DNA from: Bolinopsis microptera
Lineage: Eukaryota; Ctenophora; Tentaculata; Lobata; Bolinopsidae
Direction: 5' to 3'
DNA: 64,000 nt
Assembly: GCF_026151205.1 (NCBI RefSeq)
Contig: NC_087081.1
Coordinates: 11,533,113 to 11,597,112, forward strand
Shown here piece after piece: positions 10,130-55,557 of the stretch. Position 1 is the first letter of the stretch. Every line of letters starts with the position of its first letter. The notes beneath the pieces are model-generated. The model saw only the letters and a list, made by a program, of their open reading frames with translations. It had not been told where the DNA came from and searched no databases. Position numbers and translations under genes: made by a program.

Positions 10130-11573
10130 CTAAAACCGGCTCCCCCTCTGCCGATAGTACTGGTCCTCGTTTTTAGACCTATTGTATGGTTTTTGTCTCT
10201 GATCGTTGTGGGATCTGTCTTGTGACCTATCTTGTGATCTATCATGTGACCTATCTTGTGACCTATCATATGATCTGTCTGGGTGATGCTGCCGTCTGCG
10301 GTCACCGTATCCGCTGTTGTCATGTTGATGACGTTGGTTGTTGTTTCCATTGTAATTATCACGCGAGTTGTTGTGATAATTGTCGGTACGTGATGCGTTG
10401 TAGCCAGCAAATTGTTCGTCTTCATCGTACACTATTCTGTTGCCAACGTAGGAACTCTTTAGTTCATCTATCTCTTCAAATACACCTGAGAAGTTCAAAT
10501 TGATTTAGGAGAAATGTCCGAAGAAAGAATTTACAAAACGAAAACAATAGAAGTGCTATAAAGCAAAAACTGTATTAATGAAAAGTAGAATTGTTTCATA
10601 TAATCCTAAACAATAAAAGCCATAATATTTAAATTGGGAACTGACCATAAATTTCACTTGCTCATAAGAAATAATTATATAATTATAATAATTACCTCCG
10701 TATTTATCAGGGTTTTCGACGACCAGCCTCTCCAACAACTTCTCATACAGTTCATGATACTTGTTCTGATCAAACCGCTGGGACCCCTTGTAACGAACTC
10801 TTATTGTCTTCTCAAACAGTTGGATCCCATTGAATAACCGTTCCGCATAGGGTCCTGCAAGGAATTCTTGTTATGTATTTACGGGAACAAATTTCGAACC
10901 TCACTACACCACGTAAAAAAAATGATACAATTTTCGGTATTTTCAACTTTGCTGACAAGTTTGACATTTCGAATGTCAAAGGTACGGGGCTGTCCAAACT
11001 TTTTAAAATTGTGAGTAAAAATGCGGATGGGATATTTAATACCGAGTCTGTACCTGATATGTACAGTGGTATGTAATATACCTTATATAATAATATAACC
11101 TTATATGCGATGTTAAAAACTGACGAAAGTCGCACGTATCAGTTAAAAGTTCACCTGATATTGGATGTTTAAAAGCGACGAAAGCGTAGGGACGTTGTTC
11201 TCCGGTATCTCTGTCAACTGGAAGTTTTACATCTAAGAGAGGTCCAGCCTGAAACAGGAAATACAGACTTGAGGGGGGGGGGGTTCTGACTGCTCATACT
11301 TTTTGGGGGGAGGAGCATACTATTTGGCACGGCTTTCAATGGGGTTACTGGGGATTTCACGTTTCGTATGATAAGGAATTTAACAAATCTCTAAGGATAT
11401 TAATCGAAGGCTTTTGATTAACTCCTGGCATTATTTCTGTTTTTCAATTTCCAGGGAAAACAGTGCCATTTAGTGACACCAACCTGGACAAAAAGTTCCC
11501 AAAGAATCTCCGTAGTGACTTGACCATCTAGTCCACCGACCCAAACTGTTAGTTCCTCATCTGACGTTGCCAT
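10130..11573 (-). CDS. RBM7-like RNA-binding protein, four exons
   Basis: Read on the minus strand: exon 1 11573-11484, exon 2 11248-11155, exon 3 10854-10696, exon 4 10485-10130. All borders are GT/AG and the phases (0, 1, 1) join into 232 residues. One RRM covers about residues 8-88: RNP2-like VWVGGL, then AGPLLDVKLPVD, RNP1-like RPYAFVAF, then NGIQLFEKTIRVRY. This order and the ELFVQ-AGPL junction match RBM7/RBM11, whose RRM has ELFHQAGPV and NGIKLYGRPI. The C-terminal half is low-complexity, rich in Asn, Asp, Arg, His and Gln, with repeated DRSQ/DRSH units. Vertebrate RBM7 is a subunit of the nuclear exosome targeting complex that guides RNA decay; that role is inferred by family here. 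Human RBM7 is about 266 residues, so the length fits. The start ATG directly precedes the first RRM strand. Confidence 0.85.
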
Positions 11574-13815
11574 GACTACCGGCGGTAATTAATTAGATAA
11601 TTGATATTTTATTATCATGTATTCAGAATTCCAATAAAATATTATTATTTAATTTTATACTTTTTGTACATGGATGATAAACAGAATTAATTGTATGACA
11701 AGTGAAAAGAACTTTGTTATTCAAAGAAAGTATGCGATGAATCAATCAAATATAGTATTAATTTTTTTTTCAAGTTATGGTGATTTTTAGAACTTGAAGA
11801 TATTTTTGGTTATTTTCTGTATGTTGCCATGGTTTCAAAATATGTGATTAATAATAATATCGTATATGAAACATCTTACAGGTATGCTACCTGCAGTCAC
11901 GTCGATATGGAGACGTAGAATGCGGTTGAAATAAGGCCGGAATGGAATTTTCATTTTCTACCACTAATTAGCAAACATCCAGAGTATGTTCAAACTTTGT
12001 TAAATAACCTGATTATACCCTAAATAAATTCAATTCCGACCACATTTAAAGATAATGAAGATAAAAAAGTCGATTAACCATTCAACTTTAATCTGATAAA
12101 ATATGAACTAGCGTAGGTGTACCATCAAAATTAAGGGATGCAACGACATATCATCAATGGATTTTAGATTGTAAAGCAAATTTATCTATTTTTTGTTTAA
12201 ATGGTTTTGTTAATCAATTACTTAGTCGCCCCTTAGTCGTTGCATCCATTATTTCGTTTAATAGTCAAAACTTGCTTCATATCCCAGAAGACCCAAAACG
12301 TAGACTGTCAAAACAAATAACCAATTTATGAATACTTTTACGATTTTTTTACCTCAAAATTTTTTGAAAAGCCTTATAAAATGTAGCAAATAGTAAATAA
12401 ATAATTGATCAAGAAAACACTTAATTGGTTAAGTACGAATCACTCTGCTTTAATAATCTATAACATCGGACAGATCTAGTAGATTTTAGATAATATGGTT
12501 TTAAATTTAAGAAAAGTAAAAGTATGATTACCTTGAGTTGCATTTACAAGATAAATGTACTTAAACAGCTGTAAAATTGTTTTGCAAAACTTTTAAAAAT
12601 CAAGTAGAATCATATACATGAATATATATATATATATGATTGAATACCTTAAACAAGACTTTTAAAACAATAGAAGTAAGCTTAAACATGACTTTTAAAA
12701 CAATATCTAAGTTAGCTGTATGAGCCTTTAAATTAGCTTTTCATTTGAAGGTTTCACCGAAAAAGTTTATTTAAAGACTTAATTAAGTTAATTATAGGCC
12801 GCTGTCGAAACATTTCAGGACAGCCTGCAACCATTTTATGAGGAAAAAACAACAGTCTACTTTTACGGAAAACCATTAAATAACTGAACTCAGACATGAA
12901 AAGGTATATCGAGAAGACGACGACTTAGAATTTAAAAGTTTAAAAATATGGATAGTTTAGTTAGATGTAATGTTCAGTGTATACTGCTTAAAGTTATATA
13001 ACAGACGAAACAAATATTAAAATAGTCTAAAAACTTTTTATCGTTAAATATGAACTTAACCCTCTACAATCAAATAGCCCCGAAGAAACTTTTAAACATC
13101 TTTCAAATAAATAAAAACCAAACAATAAATCTTAAATAGCACTAATACAACTTACAACTTAAAAATCCTGGGTACGCTTTAAAACAACTGATTCCAAATA
13201 GTAAGTATAATCGCGGATATAAATATGTCAAATATCGTCAAAATCTGAATACTATAAATAAAAACAGGCTTGTAAATCTTTAAATATAATACACCGTAAA
13301 AATAATATGATAACGTAGCAAGTATTCAAATGCAGCGCGAATAAATTATATAACATAACCATATTTAACTGAAGTTTATTAATAAAAGGAGAAGAATCAT
13401 GTTTAAAATAAATATTAATATATCACCTCGTTGAACAGCCTTACATTACTTTTAAGCATACTCAAAAGAATTATAGTATCGTCAGCTTACTGTTTTGCTT
13501 TAAACTAAAACTCTGAGACTGGGTAAATAACTGTACTCGCTTTAAATAATCAATCAATCAATTCGTTTATTTATTTAATAATAAATAATTATACCCCCAT
13601 TCTTACATTCATCAATATTCACTCCGACAATTCTCTCACGTTTCAAAATCGTCCTTAAATGGTTGCAGTTGTCACGGATCAGCTTACACCTATAATTCAA
13701 CTCCCAAATCACATCGTCTCACATCACATCGTCTCAAATCACATCGTCATAAATCACATCGTCATCACTCCCAAATCACATCGTCATCATGGCTACCAGG
13801 CTTCAATCTAGTCGA
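11574..13815. other. AT-rich intergenic region without a supported gene
   Basis: No open frame with a domain or splice support was found. The segment is very AT-rich, with a short (AT)n run near 12620. The right end (about 13560-13815) is probably 3' UTR of the minus-strand zinc-finger gene: the plus strand reads tttatttattt at 13567-13577, which is AATAAA on the minus strand, about 240 bp past the stop codon of terminal exon A. Confidence 0.5.
13701..13790. repeat. Minisatellite (aaatcacatcgtc units) in a 3' UTR
   Basis: Six or so imperfect copies of a 13-16 bp unit containing cacatcgtc lie just downstream, on the minus strand, of the stop codon of terminal exon A. They would be transcribed as part of that 3' UTR, giving repeated gacgatgtg in the RNA. 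No known protein-binding motif is claimed. Confidence 0.8.
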
Positions 13816-14222
13816 TCAGTGCTCTCCAACACCGTTATTGGTGGGCTGAGATGTCATCAGAGTATCACTAGAATACAGACTTCCGTTACCAGGAGAACCG
13901 TTACTCAGGCCGGGGAACAAGCTGACTTTGCTGTGGGACCCGTTGCTAAGGCCAGGTATCAGGCCTCCATTACTCATAATAATAGGAGGTATGTTGTGAG
14001 CTCGGCTCATGTGACTCTTCAGGTTGTACTTCAGACCGAACATCATACCACACACTATACACCGAAAGGGTTTTAACTTCAGGTGAACGTTATTGAAGTG
14101 CCGTTTAAGGTTCTGAGCACGTGACGACCCCCGGAACACTTTGCCGCACACGTGACATGACACGTGCTGTTCGTTCTCTTGTTTGAGATGATGGTGGTCC
14201 CCGAATAGTCCTTTCAATAACC
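13816..14222 (-). CDS. Alternative 3' terminal exon A: C2H2 zinc-finger pair
   Basis: Read from 14222 down to the stop at 13816, after a TTTCAG acceptor, giving 135 codons including the stop. It begins in phase 1, as required by the common exons ending at 22371. It encodes two C2H2 fingers: CHVCGKVFRGSSRAQNLKRH with the final His in FNNVH, and CIVCGMMFGLKYNLKSHMSR ending RAH. They are joined by LKLKPFR. A Ser/Gly/Asn-rich tail with repeated GLSNGS follows. Finger pairs of this layout (a long first finger, a short linker, then a second finger) occur in lola, tramtrack and similar BTB-type factors and bind specific DNA. It is the most distal candidate end of the gene. Confidence 0.8.
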
Positions 14223-15435
14223 CTGAAATAAATCCAGTGTTACAATTCGAAAATTGAGGCGGGGACTGGGAATGAGGGTCAAATTCTTAGGAATGGTATT
14301 TTTTCAGAGGTTTTCGATCAGTGGTTCAAGATTTTGTGGGTTTTTGCTAGCTCCTTTTTTGCTTTTATGGAATTGTAACACTGTATATATTTCGCAGAAA
14401 AAGCTTTCATGTAGTAAAAACATACTGTGAGATTATAATGAGTGAACAATAAAGATTAAAGTAGAAATAATAATGAAATATAGCTTGTATTTAATATAGC
14501 TATTAATAACAGCACTAAATACCTAACCATGGCAACATAAGAATGATAAATTTGTACGTGATTATATTTATTTGTTTATTTATAGTCGAGTTTATTTTTA
14601 TCAGTTTTAAGGTTTAACAAAGTTACACTTTTCTTCTTGTCATAATCGTTGAACTACTTGTCTGTCTTGCAGACCACAATAAAACACACAGTAAAGTTAA
14701 TACAAAGTTTGATAGCTTAGTTTAGTAGAATGTTAACAAATCAGCATCTAAAGTTTTCCGGGTTTAGTTGGGAAAGACATTGCCTAATTTTTAAGTTTAG
14801 ATGATTCAAATGAATATAATAAGGTCATTGTTAGCTGTATTTTGTTGTATATATACCTTATAAATACATTCCATATAGATAACGAGTATAAGCATCAAGC
14901 AAAGTATAAAATATCAAATATTTCTTGCAGATTTAAGTTTATCAGAAGGTTTATAAATTAATGTTCTAGGAAAGCAATAAAATAACCTAATAATCTAGAT
15001 CTAAGCAACGGAGCTAAAGGTTAAATGTTTATACAGAGGGAAATAAAAGCATAAATGTTTGATTGGATACACTAGCTTTAACTTATTTTGATTAACTTGT
15101 TAGGTAGCTAGAAACATCATTCTAGATTTATCAGGCAAGATATTGACTATTGAGTTTAATAATTTAGGGCTCTTTTAGTTGAAAAGCATATTAAAATGCT
15201 TACTTGAGTAGAGAAGATATTAATTATCCCTATTCTTGAATTTTGTATGCTAATGTATATCTAATGTTCGTTCAGTTCGCTTCAATTATTTCAACAGAAA
15301 TAATGTAAAATAAATATCAATTACCACACAAATAATTTAACATTTCATCAGCTTATAAAGCAATTAAAATAACAACAGCAGTCTATTATTTGATGGTAAT
15401 ATTATCAACCTATAATCCCTAATCTCTCTCGCCGA

Positions 15436-15755
15436 CTAATTATAATCTGTCTTCCCATCAGGATGCTTTAACGCAGCCAACAAACTCTCAGCCTCACTCA
15501 AACTACTTTCTGTTTTTCTAATGAGATCACTTTCATATGAACTCGACTCGGGTTCTGTATTCTCCATCTCATTTCGGTTTTCAGTGGTGTGCGTCAAAAC
15601 ATGGGCTTTCAGGTACGCCTTCAGTCCAAACGATCGACCGCAATATTTACAGTGATAAGGCTTCAATTTGAGGTGGACAAGGTTAATGTGACGCTGGAGA
15701 TTTCGTTTATTTGAACCACGCAGGACTCGGCCACATATGGGGCATTGGGAGGATT
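15436..15755 (-). CDS. Alternative 3' terminal exon B: C2H2 zinc-finger pair
   Basis: Read from 15755 (after TTTTCAG) to the stop at 15436, giving 106 codons with the stop and starting in phase 1. Fingers: CPICGRVLRGSNKRNLQRHI with final NLVH, then CKYCGRSFGLKAYLKAHVLT ending H. The linker LKLKPYH is nearly that of exon A, so exons A and B look like duplicates. The tail is acidic and Ser-rich (ESSLSEAESLLAALKHPDG) and probably helical. The finger residues expected to contact DNA differ from those of exon A, suggesting a different target site; that is inference. Confidence 0.8.
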
Positions 15756-15802
15756 CTGAAAAGGATTAATTGAGAAAAACACGTTTGGGCGGGCCCCCAA
15801 AA

Positions 15803-15972
15803 CTACCGGTCCCGGGACGATTGGTTATATAATTGATGAGTCCAGGATAATTGTTGGTCGTCGTAGAGTCTCTTCCGCTCACGACATCTTTTCTGGGCCT
15901 CGCGATTGAGACGTCGCCGGCGTTCTTTCCTTTCCTCATCAGTCATGGAACAATCAATTATTGTTGGTATAC
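15803..15972 (-). CDS. Candidate alternative 3' exon D: basic bZIP-like tail
   Basis: Read from 15972 (after CCTATCAG) to the stop at 15803, giving 56 codons with the stop, and it starts in the same phase 1 as the zinc-finger exons. Instead of fingers it encodes a strongly basic helix, MTDEERKERRRRLNREAQKR followed by CRERKRLYDDQQ. This resembles a bZIP basic region (N-x-x-A-x-x-x-C-R core: NREAQKRCR). A leucine zipper is not evident before the stop, so dimerisation is uncertain. It lies only about 50 bp upstream (in gene direction) of exon B. It might be a fourth alternative DNA-binding end or a chance open frame; the phase match and basic composition favour the first. Confidence 0.55.
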
Positions 15973-17922
15973 CTGATAGGCACAGTTTTATTGCATGATA
16001 CGGTTCAAGATGGTATGTACCGTCATGCAAACAACCATGCAAATTGGATGGTGTGTGGATAAAACATCATCAAGAGGAAACACCCTCTAAACACCCTCTA
16101 AATGTGTTCTCAATTGCTCTATTTATTCTCTAAATTGGTCTGGTTGTTAACAATTTAAGGCGTTTAAGGATCAGAATCCGGGCTCGGGTTCAGGAAATGT
16201 TTTTAAATTGCCGGTTGGGATAAACTGTTATTTTTGTGTTACAAATTATAATTTTGGTTTGGAGTGCTATCTCCAGAGGACTTTCATCCAAAGGAAGTTT
16301 CCGTCTCAGGGTGTTTCCTTCAGAATCTTATCTCACCCCACCCAAACTGGATGTGTGACGAGAACCAGTCATCACTCTCCACGTGACACAATGTGGCAAT
16401 GCAGTGATGCTATGTACGAATTCAGCACACTTCAGCACATTACAAGTTTAGTTCGCGATCTGTTCAGTTACTTTAGAATGACCCAGGTTGACCGGACCCA
16501 GAATAAGTCATGGCTAAATGCACAGACTTATATCAAGCATGTGGGGACAACACAAAAGGCAAAAGCCGTTTTAAGATTAATGAACAGAGTTTCAGTGGGT
16601 GACGTCATTCAATTTGTAAAATCCGTTGAATGGAGATTAGGTCATAGGTGTCGACCAATAAATTGAAAATTTTGTTCGCGAGCGCGCGAAAAACATGCTC
16701 TCTACAAGAATTTCAGTACGCTTTGCTAGTTGTTGGGCGTCCTGACGTTTTGTCCCGGTTCACTAAACAAAGCGGTAAGATAGAAACCGGAAATTGGAGT
16801 GCGTTCTTTTGGACCTCTTACAGCTGCGGCCTAACAGGAACATATTAAAGAGTCAAAATTGTCGTTAATTCAGCAAAATGGGTATTAAGTTTACATGGAT
16901 CTGTTAAAGGGAGAGCCAGTGCGCAGTGGATGTTTTGAGGTTAAGATTCACAACATATTTTACACGGACACGAAACGTATTTTATTAAAGCTATTTGATA
17001 AGTTTGTACAGCAATACATGTACATTATATTGACCATAAAAAGTAGCTTTTACTATGAAATAATAAGGGAAATCACAAGTATTATAATCATTGTTTAAAA
17101 AGTAATTGTTAAACTGAATTGAGGAGTAATCGAAGGAAGCCCACTGAAATTTAGCCTAGATTAAAACTGTGAAATTGGACCTTGATTTGAATTCCCTTTT
17201 TGATTAAAATCTGAGATATAAAATTCTAAAAATTAAAAATCAATTATCATCAATAAAAATACATAAACTTAACATAAAAACTAATATGGATTTCTAAACC
17301 CCAGAGTCGTATTTTCGTATGAATTTTGGACTACAATTAAAATTCAACTATGCCTAGATTTCTTACATTATCATAAATCATAAATCTTAGCTATTTAAAA
17401 TCATAAACTATTTCTTAGTAAATAAACTTTGTAATTTTCTATTTTATCATCTAATCAATCCATCCAAATTGATTAATTCAACTCAGATTCGATCATAGCT
17501 TTTATTTCCCAGTCTTTTAAAATGGTCGATTGAAAACCGGCAACATCGTGATCGACCTTTTAATAAGAACAATCTTTACATGCACAATATGGCTATAATG
17601 AACGATAAGCTAAAATACAGTTCTGCACATTACTGTGCGTCTATTCTGACAAAACACGTTCAAGAAGGAAACCAAAATCTAGATAGCCACGTACTTGCCA
17701 TCGATACTGAAATTCTCACGAAGTTACAGAAACTGTAAATAAAAAGAAACAAGTGAGTTTATCAGTTTATTGTTCGTCGTATGTAACTGAACAAACTCAC
17801 TAAAACTGTATAAACAGTATGCTTTGAGAATTAAGAAGCTCGAACGCAAAGCGTTTCTAAGATCATTTAGTCTCTGTAAGATCACACAAAGTCGTTAAGA
17901 CTCGAAAGCCAGGTCCGCACCC

Positions 17923-18152
17923 CTACGAAGTTTGTATCATTTGAAGTTGGGCCAAGACGTCACTGTGTCGAGTTGACATGTGATGTTTCAGTTGTTTCTT
18001 CTGACCGAATGCCGCCGCGCAGATAGGGCACGAGTAACGGCGCAGCCCCAAATGTATGACACTTATGTGCCGGTCAAGAGAAGACTTAAAACTGAAGTTC
18101 TTAAGACAGTGGACACAGTGGAAGGGGCGTCGCCTTCCCGAGGTTGGGGAAC
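17923..18152 (-). CDS. Alternative 3' terminal exon C: C2H2 zinc-finger pair
   Basis: Read from 18152 (after ATTTCAG) to the stop at 17923, giving 77 codons' worth of sequence less one shared base, phase 1. It encodes CVHCLKNFSFKSSLDRHISV ending IH, then LGLRRYS, then CPICAAAFGQKKQLKHHMST ending RH, with a short tail (SDVLAQLQMIQTS). This pair is more diverged from exons A and B than they are from each other. It is the alternative exon nearest the common part (about 4.2 kb of intron). Confidence 0.8.
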
Positions 18153-19250
18153 CTGAAATATATGTGAAACTGTTCCTCCGGAGTGAAATATTGCAAACAT
18201 TTAGCGACAATCTGCTACGTACGTACACTCGCGGGGTGCATGTAAGTTGAACACATATTTCATGTACATTGACAGCTTACATTCATCAAAATACATATTT
18301 TCGGAATATATTCTATCCCACATGAAAATTGAAAGGAATGCAGGGCTGCTGTATTTCCACGCCTCACTACAGCACGTTTGTTAACTAATCCCACTAATAT
18401 GCCAGTAGTATTAAGTGACGTTTTAAATGCCATGACCTCAACAGAAGACCTCACCAGCTATTGCAAAACATGACACACCGATCTCAGGTTCCTAATTTGT
18501 ACGTAGATTACGTAACTCTAGCAGAGTTGTACACGGAAACAACTCTGCAGCTATAATCTAGGTACCGGTTATGGAAATGACTGGCCTTGTGACTTGCAGA
18601 CATCACTTAAACACACGTCACGTGTTACACACAGCTCGTCAAACTGACAATATGAGACATATGGTAACATCTGGTAACTGTCGTTTTATTACATCATCAT
18701 CAAAGTAAAGCCGCCGTGTTACTACACCCAGCAGTATTTGTTATGTAGTTCTCAGTATTTATAGCCCTGATTTATTCTCTAACGCGTGTGTAGTGGCGGG
18801 ATAGTGGGGGGCAACCCTATTTGTGACGATTTTGGTCAGGTGAATCGTCAAAAATTGGGTCTCCCCCGGCCCCAATGTAGCATTGTATGTAGCACGTTAT
18901 ATGTGTAACGAACACGCACAAAGTGCGATAAGTAACATTTTATATTGAACACACATTGATAGAAGTCTGATGATGACACATAAATTTTAATTGTTTGCAT
19001 TCACACGGAGTATTTGTTTCACATATAAATCAGATGAAACTAAACAAGCAAAAATAAATAAGTAATCGAGATTTAATATCTTAGACATGAAATGTTAAAA
19101 TTAGATAATTTATTAAGCACTATTCAAATTGAGATAATATTTACTGTATAATAGTTAAAAGTTATTATTTATTAACACGAAGTTATAATTAATTTGTGAA
19201 CACAGCTGTATCCCGTATGATATACTCTGTAGACTTCACTACGCCTCTTG

Positions 19251-19370
19251 AAGTGTTCTGACACGTGGCAGCAATTCTAACACCTGATCGGCTTCCTGCC
19301 AGCACGGTGACTCCTGATTGGTTAATCACACTCGCATTGGTTTAAGTGGCCGACAAGTTTCAGAACACTT
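19251..19370. repeat. 120-bp fold-back with 11-bp perfect terminal inverted repeats
   Basis: AAGTGTTCTGA at 19251-19261 pairs with TCAGAACACTT at 19360-19370. The interior is GC-richer than its surroundings and contains two ATTGG (inverted CCAAT) boxes at about 19316 and 19337. It may be a small MITE relic or an intronic promoter-like element. No second copy was noticed. Confidence 0.6.
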
Positions 19371-19961
19371 TAGCTAAAGCTCGGCGACCACAGGTAAATC
19401 TAACCAGTTCCTCGAACAAATGATAAATACCAGAGAGGGAGATTCTAAAAATAGCTATTAAGTCATGGAAACTGTGTGACTGAAATGACGACCAGGAAAA
19501 GATAGTGTGGGTATAATACCGAACAATATACTGCAATACGGTGTATATAAAACAATCGTGATAAGTAATTTGTCTGTTATCAACAGACCGTACCGGGTAC
19601 TAGTATTTTAGTAACAACTTACAACCGGCTACTAGTATTTTAGTAACAGCCAACCCTTGCGGATTATTAAGCTCTTTCCTTTCCGGTATAGCTGAGATTT
19701 CCTACGAATTACACTATTATTCTACAGTCTACGATACTCCGACTCGATCCTTAAGAAAACTTACTGATGATGGTTTAATATGTAAATTACCCAGAATACC
19801 TTGATCGGTAGTCAGAAAGTTCCAATATTTCCAAGTACTACCTGCATTACAAAGTACTAGTTACGACCACCCACTTATTCTAACGCTCTTCGACTATAAA
19901 TCGTGTTAACAAGAGGGTTTAATCTCTGCTGGCGGGCACTACTAAACAGCTCATTCTCAGT

Positions 19962-20176
19962 GCTCTATCTAAGTATTTAAATCTGATGTGAGTGGTAAAA
20001 TGATGGCATTATTGTTAGCTCTATCTCAGTATCTTGCTCTGATGTGAGTGGTAAAATGATGGCATTATTGTTAGCTCTATCTCAGTATCTTGCTCTGATG
20101 TGAGTGGTAAAATGATGGCATTATTGTTAGCTCTATCCCAGTATCTAAATCTAATGTAAATGGTAAAATGATGCCA
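19962..20176. repeat. 56-bp tandem repeat, about four copies
   Basis: Units start at 19962, 20018, 20074 and 20130 (gctctatctcagtatcttgc at the start, then gtgagtggtaaaatgatggc). The middle two copies are identical by eye and the outer two diverged, the usual pattern for a minisatellite growing from its centre. Each unit contains a GTGAGT donor-like hexamer within the large intron. Confidence 0.93.
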
Positions 20177-20709
20177 TCAAAGGGTTGGTTTAAATGACAA
20201 AGCTGTTCCAATTAGATGGACTACGTTAGTTGGACCTCCTAATCGTGATTTCATCCAATTGACTCACACTAAATGATTAGATTTATAAAGGAGCTGCAAA
20301 AAGTACCGCTGCTATCAATCACAGAGTGATCGTTTACCTTATCTTCTTTCCAGTTACTGTGAGCTCTCCGCCCGACGACGGTAAATCTGGAAATTACAAC
20401 TAACGCTCTTAATACCACGCCGCTTATCTCTCTTAGTTCAATAAACCTGCCAACCATCCCGAGGCAGAGATGAACTAGTCATTTCGCAGAACTCTGTGCA
20501 CGTTTTCACTGCCTATCTTTTAACAGGATTATTTATGAAGGAGCTGGTATATAAACCTAATTAACTGGAGGGTGCGAAGTTTCCAGATAACCACTCCGTC
20601 TATGAGCTCAACCAATCAAAATGGCGAATTTCAACCACGTGGTTTACCAGGACCAATCAGTGCCAACCACGGGACTATAGTAGTAATTCGTTTAGTAATT
20701 TTAAACATT

Positions 20710-20745
20710 TCTCTCTCTCTCTCTCTCTCACTCTCTCTCTCTCTA
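20710..20745. repeat. (CT)n microsatellite
   Basis: A run of CT dinucleotides with one interrupting a, about 36 bp, in the large intron. Confidence 0.95.
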
Positions 20746-21423
20746 GAGTCACGGAGGGATGGGGAACGATAAAGTAACAGTTAAAATTAAACGTACCATA
20801 TGTACAGTTGGAATGCTCTCTCTACAACTGGCGACATACTATCAGGGTTTGTGTGATAAATGGTGGAGGGTGGGTGGTCGAATGGTCTAACTTGGCAGTC
20901 TTGGTAATGACTAATAATATGCCTTTCTCTCCTAATGACTTTATCTCAACTCCAAGGGGCCCTGAAGTACAGTCCCACATATTATTCAGGTTATTGCAGG
21001 TGAGCGGTGTTATTATAATGCGCATACGTTATTATAATGTTGGTGGTGGTGGGGTTACAGTTATTATATATTATATTGTGTTGTTCTATATCGGGAGATT
21101 TTGGCTAAACGATTAGTCGAGAAAGGTTGATAAAACACGAGACAGTGATTTAGTGACAAAAATTAGAAAGAATGCGTAGCGTACCTTGAAATTTGATCCT
21201 TGCTAAAGTTCATAGTAATATAGTCTTATCGCTAAATAAATCAGTTGAACCAGTAAAAAACCACGGCGAAGTCACATGACCGCCATCTGGCCAACTAGGG
21301 AACTCGTAACAAGTCACGTGATTAATTTTGAACCAATGAATTGTCAGGAATTATATAGTCTTATCAGGATGGTGTTGCCGGGTTGAGGCTCCATTTAATT
21401 AGTATTTTAAATCAAGTGAGCAG

Positions 21424-21425
21424 GG

Positions 21426-21469
<44 letters not shown>

Positions 21470-21474
21470 GAGAG
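21424..21474. repeat. (GA)n microsatellite
   Basis: About 50 bp of GA repeats with occasional aca interruptions, about 0.7 kb from the (CT)n run and complementary to it. Intronic RNA from the two could pair. Confidence 0.95.
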
Positions 21475-22370
21475 GTGTGGGGTAGAGTGAATGGAATGTG
21501 TCGTTGAACTTAGTCCGATCAAGTTTACCACATACAGTAATCGCAGAGCGTTTATAAAAGTAGGAATTTTAGCAGGTAGAATACAAATTCCTCAAATATT
21601 TGTCTTGGCGAAGGAAAGTGCCAGAGGGAGCCTTGTTGGCAGTAAAAGATAAGCAGTCTGGTTTATCCACAGATGTCATATAGGATTGGGAAAAACAAAT
21701 ATAGAAAGGTGGACTTTTGTTCGAAGTCTATGTTGGATTTATAACTGGATAGATCACAAAAATAGCGCGTTCACGTTTAGTCTATTTCACTACATAAGTT
21801 CAGGTCACATTTTTTCATAGAAGTGTTAAAGTTGGGATCCGTAGTAAAATACTAAAAATAGCAGATTACGTCATCTGGGTTGTACCCAGCGACAAGCAAT
21901 AATGAAAATAATACTATGAATAACAATGTAAGGGAAAATTATTGATATCAAAACAAAGAGTTGAATTGTCTACTGTAAATTATCGATGATCGGGACTCTT
22001 AACAACAAATTGACAGGAAACTTGCCCGACCAAAAATTAATAAAATCAGTATTAAATTACTAATTATTAATGATTATTTGTTACGTGTAGAAGTAAGTAT
22101 CAATAGTTTAAATAGTGAAATTTAATATGTAGTACGATTTAATATAACAATTCCTCAAATCAGTGGATTCCTCAACCATTCTTTAAAAGTAAACATTGAG
22201 TTTGGAGTTTAGTGATTAAAACAAAAAACATGTACATATATTGATTTTGATGGTATTAGTTTGATTAGTTATTGAAATAGATGATCATTGATTAATATAA
22301 CAAAAGACACTGAAATTAAATTCTGAAATATCTAAATAGGATGAATAAAATCACAGAACATGTAACTTAC

Positions 22371-24949
22371 TGTTGGGACTTGATCTGGCGGCCGACTTTA
22401 GCTTCATATTGTCCGGTCTGAAGAAGAAGAACCATCGTTAATATTGTGACCGTATGGTATTAACATATGTCAGGTTGAATAAATTCTTTCATTGAAATTT
22501 CCAATAATCTTGCAACCCACTATTTGTACCTATCTTAACATAATAACATACTCAATAGTCAATATCATAACATTTCCACGATACTTTTCAGTATTATGGA
22601 GTTCACCGCAGACTGGTACTCAGTGAGTTCAGCCCAGTCCGCTGTAACTCCCGCATTCTATCTAGTGTGAACCACAGCCTATACGAAGTGTTATCGCACT
22701 TCAATTACATGACACTACGGAATCTGTTATCTAGTGCTCCAGCAATACTAATATATAATGCAGGTATTTGCTAACACCATTACGTCACTTATTATAACGA
22801 GAGAGAGAGAGAGAGGAAAGAAAGTGGACAAAATATTTCAGGACATGACTACAGAGTTTAAGAATGAATAAGAATTTAAGTTTGAATCTACTTTTTACAA
22901 ATTACATAGTACATCAAGACTCATCTCTAGGGTTCTGAAATATAAATAATAAGAGTTATACACTTACGAGGCTTGGTTAGGGTTTCTATCATTGTAAAGA
23001 ACGCTCAGTATTGCGGCTTGATCGACTACACCCCCGTTTCCCTGAAGATGTAGCATAGACAGGGGATTTCCATTCTTCTTTTGAGCGCTTTTCAGACCCG
23101 GTGAGAGTGATGGCCCAGGTGACGCCACCCCTGAGGTGAGCTGACTAAGTGACACCCCTGTGGTCATAGTGGTGGGTGCTAGCGATGTTATCTGGGTGAG
23201 TGCTGTGCTGTTTGGCACTTGGTGTAATCCTGCGCCGGGAGGGGTGAAGCAGGGAGCTGCAGCTGAGGTTGCAGTGGTTTGGGGACTGGTGTTATTGAGA
23301 GAACTCATCAGCTGTTGTAAGCGGTCTGTTGTCTGCCTGGTGTCTGAATCACGGAATATCGCTAGAGAAGGCATGACCTCCATTTCTTCTTTAATTTTTA
23401 CAACGTCCTCTGTTTTTGCCCTGTTTGCAATCGTTTCCTGGATCGTTTTTATCAAGTCAAGCTCTTTTCCAGATTGTGGTGTTAAATCGGAAGTATCCTT
23501 GAAGTTTTCCTGAAGCCGTTTTATGATAGCAAGGTTATTAAGATTACTGGGATCGAAGGCAGTTGGTGGAGGTGTTGGCCCTTTGTCAGATTCTGAGACC
23601 AAGGACTGGGAGACTGAATCTAACTCCTTCTGAAGAGCGGAGATAGTTTTATCAAATTCTAGAAAAGAAGAAGCAGCTTCAAGCTGGATAGGATCCACTT
23701 TGGGAACAGGAGAACTGAATGCAACAGGAACATTCTGTAAAATAGGTGACGACGAGGCTGACATGTTATTCAGTGAAGCGTTCAACGAACTGTGATGTGA
23801 CTGGGAGGATGCTATCGTGTAGCCGTTATTTAGCGCCTGGACTGGTGTGGCACTGGACAGCGCAGTTTGGAATGCGCTGGTGGGTGGAGCGAAGCTTTTC
23901 AGCGCTGATCCCAGAGAGTTGACATTGAAGGCTGGTGACGGTGCGATTGAGTTGTTTGTTAGGGATTCTACGTCTAGGTTTGATGTTTCCTCTGATGTGT
24001 TTGATCTAGGGATAAAACGTAAGTTACAAATTGGAGTAAGGCAGAGTCAAATAATCATAGTAATGCATCGACCAATTTGACAAATAATATGAAATGCAAA
24101 ACAAACTGTTTCACAAATTGCAGTTGGCCATCAGTTGAAGCTTGATACACAATAAAACCTTGGTTCAATACTGTTTCGCGATTTTTAAATTAACTATTGG
24201 CAAACAAATCACATTGTTTTTCAATCTCAAGTTGCACACTATGTAAATTATGGAGTTTAAGGCTAGTAAATTTTACTAACTTTCTATCCTAGTTACTTAC
24301 GGTGTGATGTTCATTCGTTTGGGTGTTTCGATCTCCATATTCATTACACTATCTAGGTTGAAATCTGAAGATAATGAAATCATGAGGGAATAATGTATTA
24401 ATTGGCTAAAGGTATTTCACAAGGAAATATGGACAGGAAACCCAAATTCCAAAGTCAAACCAATAGGGGGATGGAACGTTGTATCTTAAAAGCAAGAAAT
24501 ACCTAATGATAGACTATGGTAGTATACCTGATATGTAGTGATTTGAGACATTTTGATCAGTTTGTTCTGATCCAGCGGTTGAGACAGCCTCTAGAACAGG
24601 TGCTAAATGTTGCACTGAGATTATATGTTAAGTAAGCAAGATGCAATGTTCACTGTTATGTTTTTAAAATTTAATTTCCATCAAAACATAATCATTGTTT
24701 ATACCAGTTTTCGCATTTTAAATCAGTTTCACTATTCATTTCTATAGAACAGAAAAAATTGCGTAATTTAAAAGTTAACAACTAAAATTCTAATAAGTTA
24801 CCTATAGAAATAACTCTCACAGCTGTGTCGAGTAAAAACCTGACAAAATCATTGTCACTCTTTTGTTGAAAATGGAATTCGAGCTTCTGTTTGTGGTATT
24901 GGGATAAGACTTTAGGATCATCAGCTTTTATCATTAAGATGTCTACCAT
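22371..24949 (-). CDS. Common exons of a DNA-binding protein gene with alternative 3' ends
   Basis: Five minus-strand exons join in phase: 24950-24802, 24614-24528, 24364-24301, 24005-22968 and 22417-22371, all with GT/AG borders. From the ATG at 24949 they give about 461 codons and end in phase 1 with a single a. I do not recognise a named domain. The first exon encodes a probably helical segment (DPKVLSQYHKQKLEFHFQQK, then FVRFLLDTAVRVI). The large fourth exon is Ser, Thr, Pro, Asn and Gln rich, like a transactivation or scaffold region, with helical stretches (FDKTISALQKELDSVSQSL; KIKEEMEV resembles a SUMO site, psi-K-x-E). The exon has only one base before its ATG, so 5' exons to the right of 24950 may exist; a BTB domain was looked for and not seen. 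Exons A-D at 13816-18152 are the candidate continuations. Confidence 0.7.
22799..22815. repeat. Short (GA)n microsatellite
   Basis: A 17-bp GA run in the intron just downstream (gene direction) of the large common exon of the zinc-finger gene. Confidence 0.9.
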
Positions 24950-25048
24950 TCTACAAAATGAGGGTTAAGAGAATATGACTAACAATTTTCTGAATTAAAC
25001 AAATTACAATTTTTTTTGCTTCGACCAAAGAAGAAGTTTATAACAATA

Positions 25049-29928: not shown

Positions 29929-30055
29929 TGTTATATATTCTAGTAATTTATTGTATGATTAACCGATATACTATTCAGGATGACTACCTGGGTTTTGGTT
30001 TTGGTTTAGCTTTTAGCTTTTAGTCTTGCTTACCTTGTCACAACGATTCATAACA
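29929..30055 (+). repeat. Left LTR of the Gypsy element
   Basis: 127 bp, TG...CA ends, preceded by the target duplication TTAAC. It contains a gttttggttttggtttagct repeat-like stretch and an agcttttagctttta duplication. No TATA box is obvious apart from the tatatattc at its very start. Confidence 0.95.
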
Positions 30056-33000
30056 ATGGCGACGAGTCTGGTTTCGAACTTACGCTTATCCAAGGAACAC
30101 GATTGTGTCAGAGAGTGGCTGGAAATCTTCGAAAACGCCGCTTCTGTGTTCATTTTCGCACACGCAGATAAATTACCAGATGACGCAAACGAAAAAACTT
30201 CTAAAGTTGCAGATCTAATGAGAACACTGTTAACAGTCAATCTGGGGCATGACGCGTTGAAGAAGTTGCGTGCATTTACATTTCCTGCTGAAATTAAAGA
30301 CACTGACTACGCTACCCTGAGAAAAACTCTTGTTGATCGGTTATCACCCAAAACAAACATTGTAGCTCAACAGCAGAAGTTTATGACGTTGAATCAGATT
30401 GCTGGTGAATCCTTATGTACTTTTATGTCACGATTGAAGGAAGCTGCTAATGTTTGTCAGTTTGGTGATTTGTTTGATTTAATGGTGCGTACACGTTTTG
30501 TGGCTGGACTATCCTCTGATAGGATACGTGCTGAACTCATATCAGAATCTGCTACCAACGACACGTCTGCCAGCCTGTTCGATAAAGCTCAGACGAAGGA
30601 GAACGCTCTGCAAAGTTCAATGTCAGTCACAACACACTATGTTCAAAAACCCGGGAAGTTTCAAAAACCTCAAAACTCTAAGTTCCATCAGAAGGCCGAC
30701 CTTAGCATTGTTTGTTCACGTTGTACTGTTCGTGGTCATGTTGCGAAAAACTGCAAAGTTCGTTGCAGAAACTGTCGCAAACCCGGACATATCGCAAAGA
30801 ACTGTCGTTCAGCTAAGAAGCAATCCCATTGTGTTGAAGGGATTGGTGATCATGATGATGGCAACGCTTGCGCTGCTGATTATGGTTACACACACCAAGA
30901 GTTGGAGAACACGTTGTACTGCGTGGAGACGGCTGATCCTGTCCAGATTCCTGTTCCCGATGGTACTCTTCCTGCATCAGTTGTTAGTAATTTATCCAGT
31001 TGTATTGATTGTAATCAGAAACCATTTCTTAAAGTTAAGATTAATGATAAGATTTCGAAAATGGAGTTAGATACTGGTTCATCTTTAAGCTGTATAAGTA
31101 AGTCTGATTTTGCTAGACTAGGACTAACTGATTGCCAGATTGTTCCATGTTCCCAGAAATTGCGAGTAGCTAATTTTAATTGTGAAAGCATTGACTGCAA
31201 GGCCCTTGTAAACGTTGAATTTAGCGGCAAGAAATGGATTTTACCACTATATGTTGTCAATTGTCGGTTTCCCACACTCCTAGGTCGAGAGTGGATCATC
31301 CAGATGTTTGGTAAAGACTGGTTGGATCATATGATAGGACTTGTTGATGTTGAGCAATCTTACGCTGTCTCCAAGTTTCAGAGAGATGAATTTGTTAGTG
31401 AGATACTCCGCAGTCCTGTATTCAATCCTGGTGTTGGAACTGTTAAAGGATTCGAAGCTTGTCTACAATTTAAGCCTGATGCGAGAGCAAAGTTTTGCAA
31501 GGCAAGGCAGGTCCCATTTGCCATCGTAGACAAGGTTGGGAAAGCCATAGACGAGTTAGTGAAGAATGGACAGCTGATTCCAACAGAGCACTCAGACTGG
31601 GCTTCACCCATAGTTCCTGTCATGAAAGCGGATGGTACGATTCGCATATGTGGTGACTACAAGACTACTGTAAATCCTAATCTCGACACAGCTATTTACC
31701 CACTTCCTACGATAGAAGATTGCTTGAGTAAGATTGTCGGAGGTAAACTGTTTACTAAGCTGGATATCAGAGCCGCTTATAATAGTTTGAAGTTGAGAGA
31801 ATGTGACCAAAAGATTGTGACTTTGAACACACACAAAGGATTGTTCAGTCCTACTTCTCTACCATTCGGTATTTCATCTGCCGGACCGATATTTGAACGC
31901 AAGATTGATGATACCTTGAGAAAGACAGAGAACACAGCATGGCGTGTTGACGACATTCTAATAACTGGACCTGATGATGAGAGTCACATGAAGAACGTGA
32001 GAACGGTGATTACAGCACTAGAGAATGAAGGCTACAAATGCCGGCTAGACAAGTGTGTTTTCATGGAGCCTAAGGTGACATTTCTAGGCCATGAAGTATC
32101 TGCTGACGGGATAAGACCGCTGAATTCGAAAGTTGAAACCATAGTGAGAGCACCGTATCCTACTACTAGAGCGGAGATGATATCATTTCTTGGTGGTGCA
32201 CAGTACTATTCACGTTTTATTCCCAACATGTCAACAGTTGTTGAACCACTTAACCGTTTAAGACCCGCTGACAGTATTTTCCACTTTGGAGATAGAGAAA
32301 AGAGAGCTTTTGATGAGTTAAAAGCACTGTTATCGTCTGACTTGGTTCTGACAGTCTACAACCCTGAGCTGGAGTTAAAGCTTGACACGGACGCTTCATC
32401 CGTTGGTTTAGGAGCTGTTATGTCACATATTGATGAAAATGGAACAGAGCGACCGATCGAGTATATATCTCGAACTCTGACGAAATCTGAGAGAAACTAT
32501 TCCATGATAGAAAAAGAAGCATTGGCAATAGTTTGGGCGACTAAGAGACTGCACCGTTATCTTTTTGGACGACCATTTACCCTAGTTACAGACCACAAGC
32601 CGCTGGAATCTATCTTTCACCCTAGTCGTGGGATTCCTAGCATGGTGGCAGGTCGTTTACAACGATGGTCATTGTTCCTAAGCGGTTACACTTACAAGAT
32701 CCAGTTTCGACCCACTGGTAAACATTGTAATGCTGATCTATGTTCCCGTTTTCCACTGCCTTTAGACACATCGGCAGAGACGAGAGAGTTTGATGACGAG
32801 TTAACAGAGGAGTTTGAAATGAAACCTCTAGATACTGTTTTCAGCGTGCACTACTTCGGTGATGACAAACCTTTGATTGACGCTGAGTTAATAGCTAGTC
32901 ACACGAGAAGAGACAAGACACTTGGTCGAGTGTTACAGTTTGTTAAAGACGGCTGGAACGAGAAACCCCCTGTTGATGTCGAGCTGAAACCGTTTTACAC

Positions 33001-34363
33001 ACGTCGAAACGAGTTGTCAGTAGACCAAAACTGTATTGTCTGGGGATCTCGAGTTGTTATTCCAGAGAGTATGAGAAAGAGCGTGCTTTCAATGCTTCAT
33101 GCAACACACATGGGCATTTCACAGACCAAAGCACTAGCGAGAGGCTATGTTTATTGGCCAAACATGGATGCTGAGATCGAGAAAATGGTTAAACTATGTG
33201 AACCATGTCAACTAAACCAGAAGAAACCCGCTAGATCTACACCACACCCATGGGCTAAAACTATGGAGGCTTGGGAGCGGATTCATCTAGATTTCTGTGG
33301 ACCCTTTCTTGGATCTATGTGGCTGATAGTTATCTGTTCGTATTCAAAATGGTTAGAAGTTGTTAGAATGACGAACATTACAAGTAAGAGAGTGATTCAA
33401 GAGTTACGAGACATCTTTAGCCGTTGGGGACTACCCAAGATACTAGTATCAGACAATGGATCGAGTTTAACTTCAGAAGAGTTTAAAGTATTCACGAACA
33501 ATAACCAGATTCGACACGTGCTTATTCCTGCTTACTCACCTGCAAGTAATGGACAAGCAGAAGTTGCAGTCGGACTGTTTAAAAGAGCTATGAAACGGAT
33601 GATCTTGAAAAACCCTGACGTTATGTGTAACCTGGCTGATTGGCTGCTAAACTACCGCAACACACCACACACCACTACCGGAGTAGAGCCTGCAGTTGCG
33701 ATGATGAAACGACGGACGAGAAACGCCTTGAGTTTTCTACACCCGAGTTCGAGTAGTAAGTTTGCCAAAGTTGCTTTAAACGATCAGAACACGATTGCTG
33801 AATCGAGACTTCGTGATCTGAAGATTGATGACACTATATCGTTCTATGATGAGAACAAGAAGTGCTGGAGAAACGGTGTTATCGAGGGTAAGGAAGGTAC
33901 CAAAGTGCTACTGATCAAGACACCTGATGGAGTCTACCGCAAGCATTTGGACCAAGTGATCAAGAGATCTGTTGTGTCAGAGCCGTTGCAACAAACAGAT
34001 CCGGATACACCGAGAGTTGAGCTGGAGATAAGAGATGAGCAGAGTTCTACAGCTATTGATGGTGATTTCGAGAAGACAGCTAGCTTACCTATGAGTAAAG
34101 ATCCGGAAACTTCGATTATAGTTGGTAATAATCCAAATCTACCCCCTGAGCCTGACCATAAGGCAGCCGTTGAACCTATAATCACTGCACAACCCGTACT
34201 TAAACCACGTGAGCTTGCCATAGAAATTAACCGTAGCACTATAAAACCTAATATTGTTAGAGAGCATGAATTGCAAAAACCTAATTTGCTTCTGCCAGCA
34301 AACTTTGCACGTGATAGTAAACCACCAGACAGGCTAAGTTACCGCAAACTGGGAGGAACATAA
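30056..34363 (+). CDS. Gypsy gag-pol polyprotein, single uninterrupted frame
   Basis: About 1,435 codons from ATG 30056 (MATSLVSNLRL), with no frameshift between gag and pol. Order: gag; two CCHC knuckles near residues 220-250 (CSRCTVRGHVAKNC and CRNCRKPGHIAKNC); aspartic protease with DTGSS near 338; RT with FTKLDIRAAY near 567; RNase H with LDTDASSVGLGA near 775; integrase with an HHCC zinc finger near 1015-1055 and a DDE core (LDFCGPF near 1078, SDNGSS near 1132, NGQAEV near 1165). The frame is open upstream to 30026, but ATG 30056 overlaps the primer-binding site and is the likelier start. The RT active site reads RVDD rather than the usual YxDD; the two Asp are kept but the Tyr is not, which may reduce activity. 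No chromodomain is evident. Confidence 0.92.
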   Translation: MATSLVSNLRLSKEHDCVREWLEIFENAASVFIFAHADKLPDDANEKTSKVADLMRTLLTVNLGHDALKKLRAFTFPAEIKDTDYATLRKTLVDRLSPKTNIVAQQQKFMTLNQIAGESLCTFMSRLKEAANVCQFGDLFDLMVRTRFVAGLSSDRIRAELISESATNDTSASLFDKAQTKENALQSSMSVTTHYVQKPGKFQKPQNSKFHQKADLSIVCSRCTVRGHVAKNCKVRCRNCRKPGHIAKNCRSAKKQSHCVEGIGDHDDGNACAADYGYTHQELENTLYCVETADPVQIPVPDGTLPASVVSNLSSCIDCNQKPFLKVKINDKISKMELDTGSSLSCISKSDFARLGLTDCQIVPCSQKLRVANFNCESIDCKALVNVEFSGKKWILPLYVVNCRFPTLLGREWIIQMFGKDWLDHMIGLVDVEQSYAVSKFQRDEFVSEILRSPVFNPGVGTVKGFEACLQFKPDARAKFCKARQVPFAIVDKVGKAIDELVKNGQLIPTEHSDWASPIVPVMKADGTIRICGDYKTTVNPNLDTAIYPLPTIEDCLSKIVGGKLFTKLDIRAAYNSLKLRECDQKIVTLNTHKGLFSPTSLPFGISSAGPIFERKIDDTLRKTENTAWRVDDILITGPDDESHMKNVRTVITALENEGYKCRLDKCVFMEPKVTFLGHEVSADGIRPLNSKVETIVRAPYPTTRAEMISFLGGAQYYSRFIPNMSTVVEPLNRLRPADSIFHFGDREKRAFDELKALLSSDLVLTVYNPELELKLDTDASSVGLGAVMSHIDENGTERPIEYISRTLTKSERNYSMIEKEALAIVWATKRLHRYLFGRPFTLVTDHKPLESIFHPSRGIPSMVAGRLQRWSLFLSGYTYKIQFRPTGKHCNADLCSRFPLPLDTSAETREFDDELTEEFEMKPLDTVFSVHYFGDDKPLIDAELIASHTRRDKTLGRVLQFVKDGWNEKPPVDVELKPFYTRRNELSVDQNCIVWGSRVVIPESMRKSVLSMLHATHMGISQTKALARGYVYWPNMDAEIEKMVKLCEPCQLNQKKPARSTPHPWAKTMEAWERIHLDFCGPFLGSMWLIVICSYSKWLEVVRMTNITSKRVIQELRDIFSRWGLPKILVSDNGSSLTSEEFKVFTNNNQIRHVLIPAYSPASNGQAEVAVGLFKRAMKRMILKNPDVMCNLADWLLNYRNTPHTTTGVEPAVAMMKRRTRNALSFLHPSSSSKFAKVALNDQNTIAESRLRDLKIDDTISFYDENKKCWRNGVIEGKEGTKVLLIKTPDGVYRKHLDQVIKRSVVSEPLQQTDPDTPRVELEIRDEQSSTAIDGDFEKTASLPMSKDPETSIIVGNNPNLPPEPDHKAAVEPIITAQPVLKPRELAIEINRSTIKPNIVREHELQKPNLLLPANFARDSKPPDRLSYRKLGGT

Positions 34364-40521: not shown

Positions 40522-40562
40522 TTTTAATACTTTCAACACTACTATATAACAAATAATTTGAG
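40522..40562 (+). repeat. 41-bp leader shared with the CR1-like LINE (copy 1)
   Basis: From ttttaatactttcaac to caaataatttgag, identical over 41 bp to 50051-50091, and 20 bp upstream of the ATG at 40583. Flanks on both sides are unrelated between the two loci. It may be the true 5' end of the LINE RNA. Confidence 0.95.
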
Positions 40563-40582
40563 AGTGTATCCTTCTCTCTTTG

Positions 40583-43500
40583 ATGTCATCAGAATGCAAC
40601 AACGACCTCTTGTTGAGGGATATCAAGCTAGACATAGCAGTACCAGCTGAAGATGAACTTGAGAGAACAGTTGTTATCCCCACCCTCTCTCAGACCTTGA
40701 ATGACATCCGTAATGGTCAAGATGCAGTATCAGAAAATGCTGAAGGCAAATGGTTATGTGGGAAGTGTACAAAAGTCCTTAAGGAGAAGGATAAGGCTAT
40801 TGGTTGTGAAGGTATGTGTTCCAGATGGTTCCATGATCGATGTGTGCTAAGTGAAGAGGAACAACTTAAGTTTTTTGAGGACCAGTCAACAGAACCATGG
40901 CATTGCAAAGAATGTGTACACAGACTTCAAGAATCTATAAGATGGGGCAAGATGATAGGGGAAGAGGAGATAGGAGCAAAACTAGATGAAGTCTATACTG
41001 AGATGATAACTTGGCGCAGCAATTTATTTGAAGTTCCAAGGGGCAGAGCCGGGAAAGACTACATTGAGGAGGTGTCTAGGATTCTCAGTGAGTTTACGTA
41101 TAACACAAAATGGAAACCCTTTTCCTTAAAGCTCGTCCATGTGTTCATGCCTTTGATGCTCCAGCGCCCAACACCAAAATCGAAACCCAAGCAGAACACC
41201 AAATATCTAAAGGAAAGGCTTAAGTTGTGGGCAGACGGTGAAATTGATGCAATTATGAAACAATGCCGTCAAATTCAGGCTCATCTGGACAAAAAGCAAA
41301 AAGACAGGGTAATGAATCATAAGAAAGCTTTCTGCAGATTGATGCTACAAGGGCGAGTCCAGAAAGCCCTTAAGTACATCAATGATGAAGAAAAACTTAG
41401 CAGTGGTGTACATAATCTTACACAAGCAGTCATTGATGAGCTTAAGAAAAAGCACCCAGAAGCTAGCCCTGAACATCCGGAGGTCATGCTAGAGGTCAAA
41501 TCAGAGCTTCCTGATCAAGTAATTTATGAAAGTATTGATGCTGACCTGATTCAGAAAGTGGCAAAAGATCTAGATGGGGCAGGAGGTCCAACAAAGATAA
41601 ATGCCCATATCTTCAAGCATATGATATGCTCAAGATTCCACAGCACTGAATCAGATAAGCTTGCCCAGACAGTAGCTGATCTGACTAAAAAGCTCTGCAC
41701 AGAACAAACTCCATCTAGCTACCTAAAAGAGTTTGTTGCAGGAAGACTTATACCCCTTGACAAAGAGCCTGGCTCTATAGTTCCTGCCATAAGACCTATA
41801 GGAATTGGAGAAGTCCTTCGAAGAATCGTTGCCAAAGCAGTCACAAGAATACTCAAGTTGGACATCCAAATGGCTGCTGGGAGTCTTCAAACATGTTCAG
41901 GGACAGAGTCGGGCATAGAAGCTGCTATTCACGGAATGAAAGCAGTTTTTGAGGACGAAGACTGCGAAGCAGTGTTGTTGATCGATGCCAAGAATGCTTT
42001 TAACTCCCTCAATAGAAAGGTAGCACTAAACAACATAAGAGAACTGTGTCCATCTCTTCATTGCTTCCTCCAAAACTGTTATCAAGATTCAACAGATCTA
42101 TACATAGTGGATGAAAAGGGACAGCTTGAAATCATCAAGGGAGAAGATGGTTCAACCCAAGGCGACCCAGCAGCCATGGCTAAATATGCAATATCAATAA
42201 GACCATTAATGGATGACATCACTAGAAACCAAGACCATGTGTTACCCTTAGCAAAACAAGCCTGGTTTGCAGATGATGGAACAGCAGGGGGAAAACTTCT
42301 TCAGCTTAAGAAGCTCTGGGACACCTTACAACAGTTAGGACCAAAGTATGGTTATTTCCCAAATGCTACAAAGACTGTGTTAATAGTCAAGGACCTAGTA
42401 AATCTTCCTGCAGCTAATGCTATCTTCAAAGACTCAGGGGTTCACATAAAGAGGGACGGAGACAGACACCTTGGGGCTGTAATTGGATCAGAAAGCTACA
42501 GAGACCTTTATGTGAAAAATAAAGTTTCATCCTGGATTGAAGATGTTAAACAACTGGCTGAGATTGCCAAAGAAGAACCTCAAATAGCATATTCTGCTTA
42601 CACTAAAGGGTTGAGTCATAGATGGTCTTTTGTTCAAAGAACAATTGGAGGGATATCAGAGCTGTTTAGACCCCTTGAAGAAGCAATTAGAACAATACTT
42701 CTTCCCTCTATATTCAATCGCCCAGTAACAGACCTAGAGAGAGACATGGTCGCACTACCTCTTAGACACGGTGGCTTAGGAATTCAAAATCCTGTTCATA
42801 CAGCAGACAGAGAATATGAGGCGTCACAGAAAATCACAAAACCTCTGGCTAATCTTATCTATAACCAAGATCATGATCTAGGCAAACTTGACCTCACAGC
42901 TATTGCAAACACCAAAGCAGCACTGAAAGCTGAAAAAGAAAAAGATTTTGCAGCAGAGAGACTCAGAATAGAAAACGCAATAAGTTCTCCAGCAAAGAAA
43001 AGATCGTTTTCACTGGCTACACAAAAAGGCAGTTCATCCTGGCTGTCAGCCCTCCCAATGCAGTCTTATGGTTACTGCTTGAACAAGAAGGACTTTAGAG
43101 ATGGTATATGTTTGCGATATGGCTGGCCTATACAAGATATTGCTAAACACTGTGCGTGTGGAGAAAGAAACTCCGTCGATCATGCCCTTTCTTGTAAAAA
43201 AGGAGGGTATGTTTCCTTTAGACATACAGTGCTTGTAGAAACCGAAGCAGATCTACTACGTGAGGCTAAATGTAGAAACGTTTATACTGAGCCAGCTCTC
43301 TTACCAACGTCTCCAGAACTTCATCCCAAAGGAACTACTACTGACAGCGGAGCAAGGCTAGATATTGTTGCAACTGGATTATATGGCAGGAATGCTAGGA
43401 CTTTCATGGATGTAAGAATAACACACCCAAATGCACCATCAAACCTTAATGTTCCCCTGGACAAGTTGTACAAGAGAAATGAAGAAGAAAAAAAAACTAA

Positions 43501-55411: not shown

Positions 55412-55544
55412 TGTTAATCTTATATACCATTTGCAGGATGGCAGAAACTCCAGGAGGCTTTGTCTGACTTGATTTGTATTCCTTGTTTGAAGTTCATGTT
55501 TCTATCATCCACTAGTGTTACTGTCTCACTTTATTGAATTAAAA
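55412..55544 (+). repeat. Left LTR of the Copia element
   Basis: 133 bp, preceded by GTTTG. It is followed by gtgatagcagg, where the primer-binding site would be expected; Copia elements often use an internal part of a tRNA as primer, and I cannot name it. Confidence 0.93.
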
Positions 55545-55557
55545 GTGATAGCAGGAA

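Follow-up and report, generated by a model that had tools for sequence, protein, structure and literature searches.

We analyzed a 64,000-nucleotide (nt) stretch of contig NC_087081.1 of the ctenophore Bolinopsis microptera (hereafter the window), whose minus strand carries the gene LOC134821797. Five common exons of this gene lead to a splice donor at 22371, and four exons with their own stop codons, here called tails A to D, lie downstream of it. Three of them encode pairs of C2H2 zinc fingers and one a bZIP-type basic region. The layout resembles that of the Drosophila gene lola, a design best known from insects, in which, according to PMC1947980, common BTB-containing exons are joined to unique C-terminal exons, most of them with zinc fingers, to give about 20 isoforms by cis- and trans-splicing. 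We consider LOC134821797 a probable transcription-factor gene of lola-like layout that has an unrelated front domain, evolved independently, and has its tails swapped by splicing. The exons are listed below, where P0001 denotes the annotated isoform X3 of LOC134821797.

Common exon 1, 24802..24949, minus strand: ATG and most of the conserved N-terminal domain, which is kept in 11 family proteins; identical to P0001
Common exon 2, 24528..24614, minus strand: last part of the N-terminal domain; identical to P0001
Common exon 3, 24301..24364, minus strand: identical to P0001
Common exon 4, 22968..24005, minus strand: low-complexity linker with LEFDKTISALQKELDSVSQSL, an IKEE motif, and NPLSML; identical to P0001
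Common exon 5, 22371..22417, minus strand: phase 1 end at the donor CA/GTAAGT (the slash marks the cut), the shared splice donor; identical to P0001
Tail A, 17923..18152, minus strand: C2H2 pair matched by Pfam, own stop; join to 22371 confirmed by the annotated protein
Tail B, 15803..15972, minus strand: candidate tail with a bZIP-type basic region lacking a zipper, own stop; weakest acceptor
Tail C, 15436..15755, minus strand: candidate tail with a C2H2 pair, finger one with a lengthened loop, own stop
Tail D, 13816..14222, minus strand: candidate tail with a C2H2 pair, finger one with a lengthened loop, own stop

Common exons and the confirmed join to tail A

The common exons, which have GT donors and AG acceptors, total 1384 nt, that is, 461 codons and one base, and thus end in phase 1 at 22371 as the original prediction had stated. 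Its description of the four downstream exons also held on the sequence: each is preceded by CAG, begins with the two bases that complete the split codon (giving S, S, K, and R), and ends in its own stop. The predicted proteins with tails A, B, C, and D comprise 537, 517, 567, and 596 residues, respectively.

With the 461 common residues as query, 15 proteins reached E ≤ 1 among the 7995 candidates scored. The best match was LOC134821797 isoform X3 with 100% identity, followed by a protein of Mnemiopsis leidyi (P0002) with 71%. Joining the common exons to the exon that starts at 18152 reproduced the 537 amino acids of isoform X3 letter for letter. Because of this identity, the start codon, the common joins, and the join from 22371 to 18152 are confirmed, at the protein level, as they stand in the NCBI annotation. 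The cluster represented by P0001 has 10 members, and further tails of LOC134821797 may sit among them. A comparison of P0001 with GTDB genomes confirmed no relative.

The Mnemiopsis protein also indicates which parts of the product are conserved. Its front domain alone is 97% identical to that of LOC134821797 over 63 residues and its tail is 98.6% identical to tail A over 71 residues, as against 71% over the common part. Thus, the front domain and tail A are the constrained ends, and the linker between them varies. In this linker, encoded by exon 4, LEFDKTISALQKELDSVSQSL looks helix-like by eye, and the IKEE motif, which we take to be SUMO-type, recurs together with NPLSML in several members of the front-domain family.

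The start codon sits one base past an acceptor-like site, TTTTGTAG (24949-24970), as expected for either a spliced 5′ leader exon or spliced-leader trans-splicing. Spliced-leader trans-splicing has been reported in ctenophores.

Candidate tails B, C, and D

The C2H2 matches of tails A, C, and D all exceed the Pfam cut-off, in agreement with the finger pairs originally proposed for three of the exons. Tails C and D are 58% identical to each other over 50 residues, and the tail of isoform X6 of LOC134813369, a paralogue described below, is 46% identical to tail C (52 residues) and 42% to tail D. In the 200 nt scanned up to the acceptors of tails B and C, no CAG or TAG other than the acceptor itself leads into an open frame. 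Tail D has a rival CAG at 14265, which is out of phase; the further CAG/TAG candidates of tail A are likewise all out of phase, and its acceptor is settled by isoform X3.

We scanned 22371-13816 for in-phase terminal open reading frames (ORFs) of at least 55 codons that follow a CAG or TAG acceptor with a pyrimidine fraction of at least 0.47, a threshold chosen after the value of tail B was known. Exactly four distinct ORFs were obtained, namely tails A to D. Four such ORFs were reached in 34 of 100 shuffles and are not rare by themselves, whereas three of at least 75 codons were reached in only 2 of 100. A broad C2H2 pattern had six matches between 13816 and 22371 and one further match elsewhere in the window; 200 dinucleotide shuffles of 13816-22371 averaged 0.02 matches, and not one of them reached six. 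A bZIP basic-region pattern had one match against a mean of 0.01, with 2 of 200 shuffles reaching one; the pattern had been relaxed at its start to accommodate the L of tail B, which makes this control partly post hoc. The strict C2H2 pattern and the bZIP pattern gave no further tails on the minus strand below 24950; the strict C2H2 pattern does not, however, detect finger one of tail C or of tail D, and no search aimed at other types of domain was made in the intron or below 13816.

A search with tails B, C, and D, which sees only the representatives of clusters formed at 90% identity, returned 91 proteins at E ≤ 0.001 from 320 candidates, the top identity listed being 55% over 24% of the query. 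At this level, the finger pair at the end of one protein (P0065) resembles the tail query and has the same VHLKLKP linker; the protein has no front domain, and its precomputed Pfam list contains PF05225, which we take to be HTH_psq.

Tail B was originally described as a bZIP-like helix, and of this description the basic half survived. The sequence NREAQKRCRER (15907-15875) fits N-x2-A-A/Q-x2-C/S-R, and Pfam aligned the tail with bZIP_1 (E 5.1e-5) at 23.7 bits, 3.9 bits under the cut-off of 27.6, and with bZIP_2 (E 1.8e-4) at 0.3 bits under the curated cut-off. The match covers the basic half only, profile positions 3-27 of 64. The residue preceding the N is L, which falls outside the PROSITE bZIP pattern. 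Tail B resembles bZIP transcription factors in this basic region but has no leucine zipper: placed by hand in the GCN4 register, Q, L, and D occupy the three leucine heptad positions before the ORF ends. DNA binding by tail B as a dimer, if it occurs, would have to depend on dimerization through the front. A comparison with IMG/VR confirmed no relative of tail B.

It is a serious possibility, falling a little short of even, that the C2H2 tails A, C, and D are the only real ones and that the bZIP-like frame is open by chance or represents a decayed exon. Although all four exons do follow CAG, the acceptors were not uniformly good as first proposed, and that of tail B, with a pyrimidine fraction of 0.47, is the lowest of eight scored. 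Together with the missing zipper and the Pfam scores under cut-off, an AATAAA 20 nt upstream of this acceptor, a stop just 47 nt ahead of tail C, and a negative codon score would all fit a spurious frame. Against this, a basic-region pattern arose in so few shuffles even when loosened to admit tail B, the tail is in phase after the only open-frame acceptor scanned, and its best PDB match, although not significant (E 0.21), is the basic region of NFIL3. Because tail B has a basic region but no zipper, and because its stop lies 47 nt before tail C, we prefer to describe it as part of a composite exon, reached through a possible alternative acceptor, rather than as a fourth exon in its own right. 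A transcript using tail B would either include tail C in its 3′ untranslated region or terminate within tail C, which contains an AATAAA at 15711. A splice from B to C through a weak donor overlapping the stop of tail B was also considered and rejected, as by hand count it carries two bases and the tail C exon needs one. Taken together, the join to tail A is confirmed, those to tails C and D are likely, and that to tail B is about even.

Front domain and its family

The front is an N-terminal domain of about 50 residues that is predicted to be helical. Pfam found no significant domain in the 461 common residues, BTB included (one match, E 0.11), and a sequence search found no PDB relative of the front domain. 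The absence of a visible BTB domain, noted in the original prediction, is thus borne out, the NCBI protein beginning at the same ATG and the front of the relative P0007 being predicted helical. A BTB exon to the right of 24950 was considered and rejected, since the annotated protein begins at 24949 and retroelement ORFs make up most of the flank from about 26.5 kb onward.

We collected the family with residues 1-70 of P0007, in a search that reaches only proteins of 0.55-1.75 times the query length sharing exact words with it. Eleven proteins were obtained at E ≤ 1 among 19 candidates, and the six that carry an organism name are all from ctenophores. At 34 of 48 positions (13-60 of P0007), all 11 proteins have the same residue; five of the rows represent essentially one locus. 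In the AlphaFold model of P0007, a relative and not the LOC134821797 protein itself, the N-terminal part contains only helices, at 11-23 and 31-63, with block means of the predicted local distance difference test (pLDDT) of 58-76. Foldseek with this model gave 191 matches at E ≤ 10 and none at E ≤ 0.001; the best 50 of the 191 (top E 1.7e-3) all have zinc-finger names.

The family includes a paralogue in which one front is followed by several tails. In the NCBI isoforms X5, X6, X8, and X15 of LOC134813369, an identical 372-residue front precedes different C2H2 tails, and in P0015 a front of 374 residues, closely similar to this one, is followed by a fifth distinct tail. Isoform labels of this gene run up to X15, and the five tails seen all begin with P and all have zinc fingers. 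LOC134813369 resembles LOC134821797 in its front domain, common linker motifs, and alternative C2H2 tails, but lies on another contig (21.3 Mb, against 18.3 Mb for that of LOC134821797) and has a different linker. By analogy, such a paralogue supports tail swapping in LOC134821797. In P0007, the front domain is followed by a tail 73% identical to tail A over 71 residues. P0013 has, after the front domain, a SIX domain of which the second half is present (profile 51-112 of 113, E 4.5e-21), together with a homeodomain (E 4.4e-11), suggesting that DNA-binding domains of other classes have also been attached to this front. With C2H2 tails in LOC134813369 and P0007 and a SIX/homeodomain tail in P0013, the family front is thus seen next to DNA-binding tails of two structural classes, in addition to the bZIP-like tail B.

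Competing explanations and the rest of the window

In the scheme we favor, the donor at 22371 would be spliced to one tail acceptor per transcript, with the choice of polyadenylation (poly(A)) site presumably coupled to it, so that one gene would yield a set of regulators that share a front but differ in DNA targets. The proteins are probably held together as homo- or hetero-oligomers by the helical front domain, in the role that BTB has in lola. Tails B and C would share a composite terminal exon, in which their acceptors lie 217 nt apart, and the paralogue LOC134813369 would run the same scheme with other finger pairs. The lola-like layout put forward in the original prediction, one gene with in-phase alternative tails, is supported in this form, the join being confirmed for one tail of the four.

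Several observations weigh against this scheme. In the search of cluster representatives, we found neither a transcript nor an annotated protein in which 22371 is joined to tail B, C, or D: of the 91 representatives that match these tails, none matches the LOC134821797 front or common residues by BLASTP at E ≤ 1e-3. The acceptor of tail B is weak, as described above. The codon-usage score per codon was −0.21 for tail B and −0.14 for tail C, as compared with 0.01 for tails A and D and −0.64 to 0.10 for open intron runs; this score has little power because it fails on the clear fingers of tail C too. In addition, the AlphaFold model of P0007 is of low overall confidence (mean pLDDT 50.5), and oligomerization through the front domain is what we infer rather than observe.

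A second explanation is that the common exons and tail A form one gene and that 15972-13816 contains the ORFs of one or several separate zinc-finger genes downstream. Only the join to tail A is confirmed, and a poly(A)-like hexamer follows each C2H2 tail: ATTAAA lies 276 nt downstream of the stop of tail C, and the two AATAAA candidates are as follows.

Candidate poly(A) signal AATAAA, 17766..17771, minus strand: 152 nt downstream of the tail A stop
Candidate poly(A) signal AATAAA, 13570..13575, minus strand: 241 nt downstream of the tail D stop

No poly(A) assignment is firm, because AATAAA is frequent in this AT-rich DNA, with 16 occurrences in 13300-23000. Tails B, C, and D all lie in the single phase allowed by the donor at 22371, and tails C and D resemble the isoform X6 tail of the paralogue; we therefore consider separate genes improbable. 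Still less probable is trans-splicing, in which tails transcribed from their own promoters would be joined to common-exon transcripts as in the insect precedents lola (PMC1947980) and mod(mdg4) (PMC12692577), since ordinary cis-splicing suffices for tails that are on the same strand and no more than 9 kb downstream.

The tail-swapping reading places LOC134821797 beside lola but outside its group. Both have common N-terminal exons and alternative C-terminal exons mostly with zinc fingers, whereas the front of lola is a BTB domain and that of LOC134821797 an unrelated short domain predicted to be helical, and one of the candidate tails of LOC134821797 is bZIP-like. Thus, of the features of the lola/Tramtrack group, LOC134821797 lacks the N-terminal BTB domain and has, at the sequence level, one donor with several in-phase terminal exons encoding C2H2 pairs. 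PMC11426971 reports that Tramtrack-type BTB domains, to which that of lola belongs, were not found outside arthropods. Among the open-licence PubMed Central papers listed, as judged by titles and abstract openings, none reports a lola-like scheme in ctenophores. Such a scheme on an unrelated front would suggest that splice-swapped DNA-binding tails arose more than once, and it would single out a lineage-specific family of regulators that can be tested, in a phylum whose C2H2 proteins have recently been linked to chromatin loops. According to PMC12221973, the binding sites of CTEP1 and CTEP2 overlap most Mnemiopsis loop anchors. Both are C2H2 proteins that have been reported in ctenophores alone, a description that also fits LOC134821797. 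A broader reading, which we regard as unlikely, is that ctenophores independently evolved a small helical oligomerizing front, seen so far only in ctenophores where the source names the organism, that is spliced to C2H2 pairs, a bare bZIP basic region, or a half-SIX domain with a homeodomain, and that some isoforms could be CTEP loop tethers. If this is true, splice choice would retarget loop anchors.

Scans of the window for tRNA genes and Rfam families found none. At 10130-10504 on the minus strand, an ORF rich in R, D, N, Q, and S repeats (RSQDRSHDRS) looks by eye like the tail of an RNA-binding protein; it has no Pfam match. The right half of the window (26473-63081) is largely retroelement. 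It contains a long terminal repeat element with reverse transcriptase, RNase H, and integrase at 30017-34363, a copia-like gag-pol run identified by eye at 54844-59789, and reverse transcriptase matches in five further frames, one of them under the cut-off. A retroelement ORF at 40562-43810 has an N-terminus that by eye resembles a PHD-type finger, and Pfam gives it only a sub-threshold RVT_1 match.

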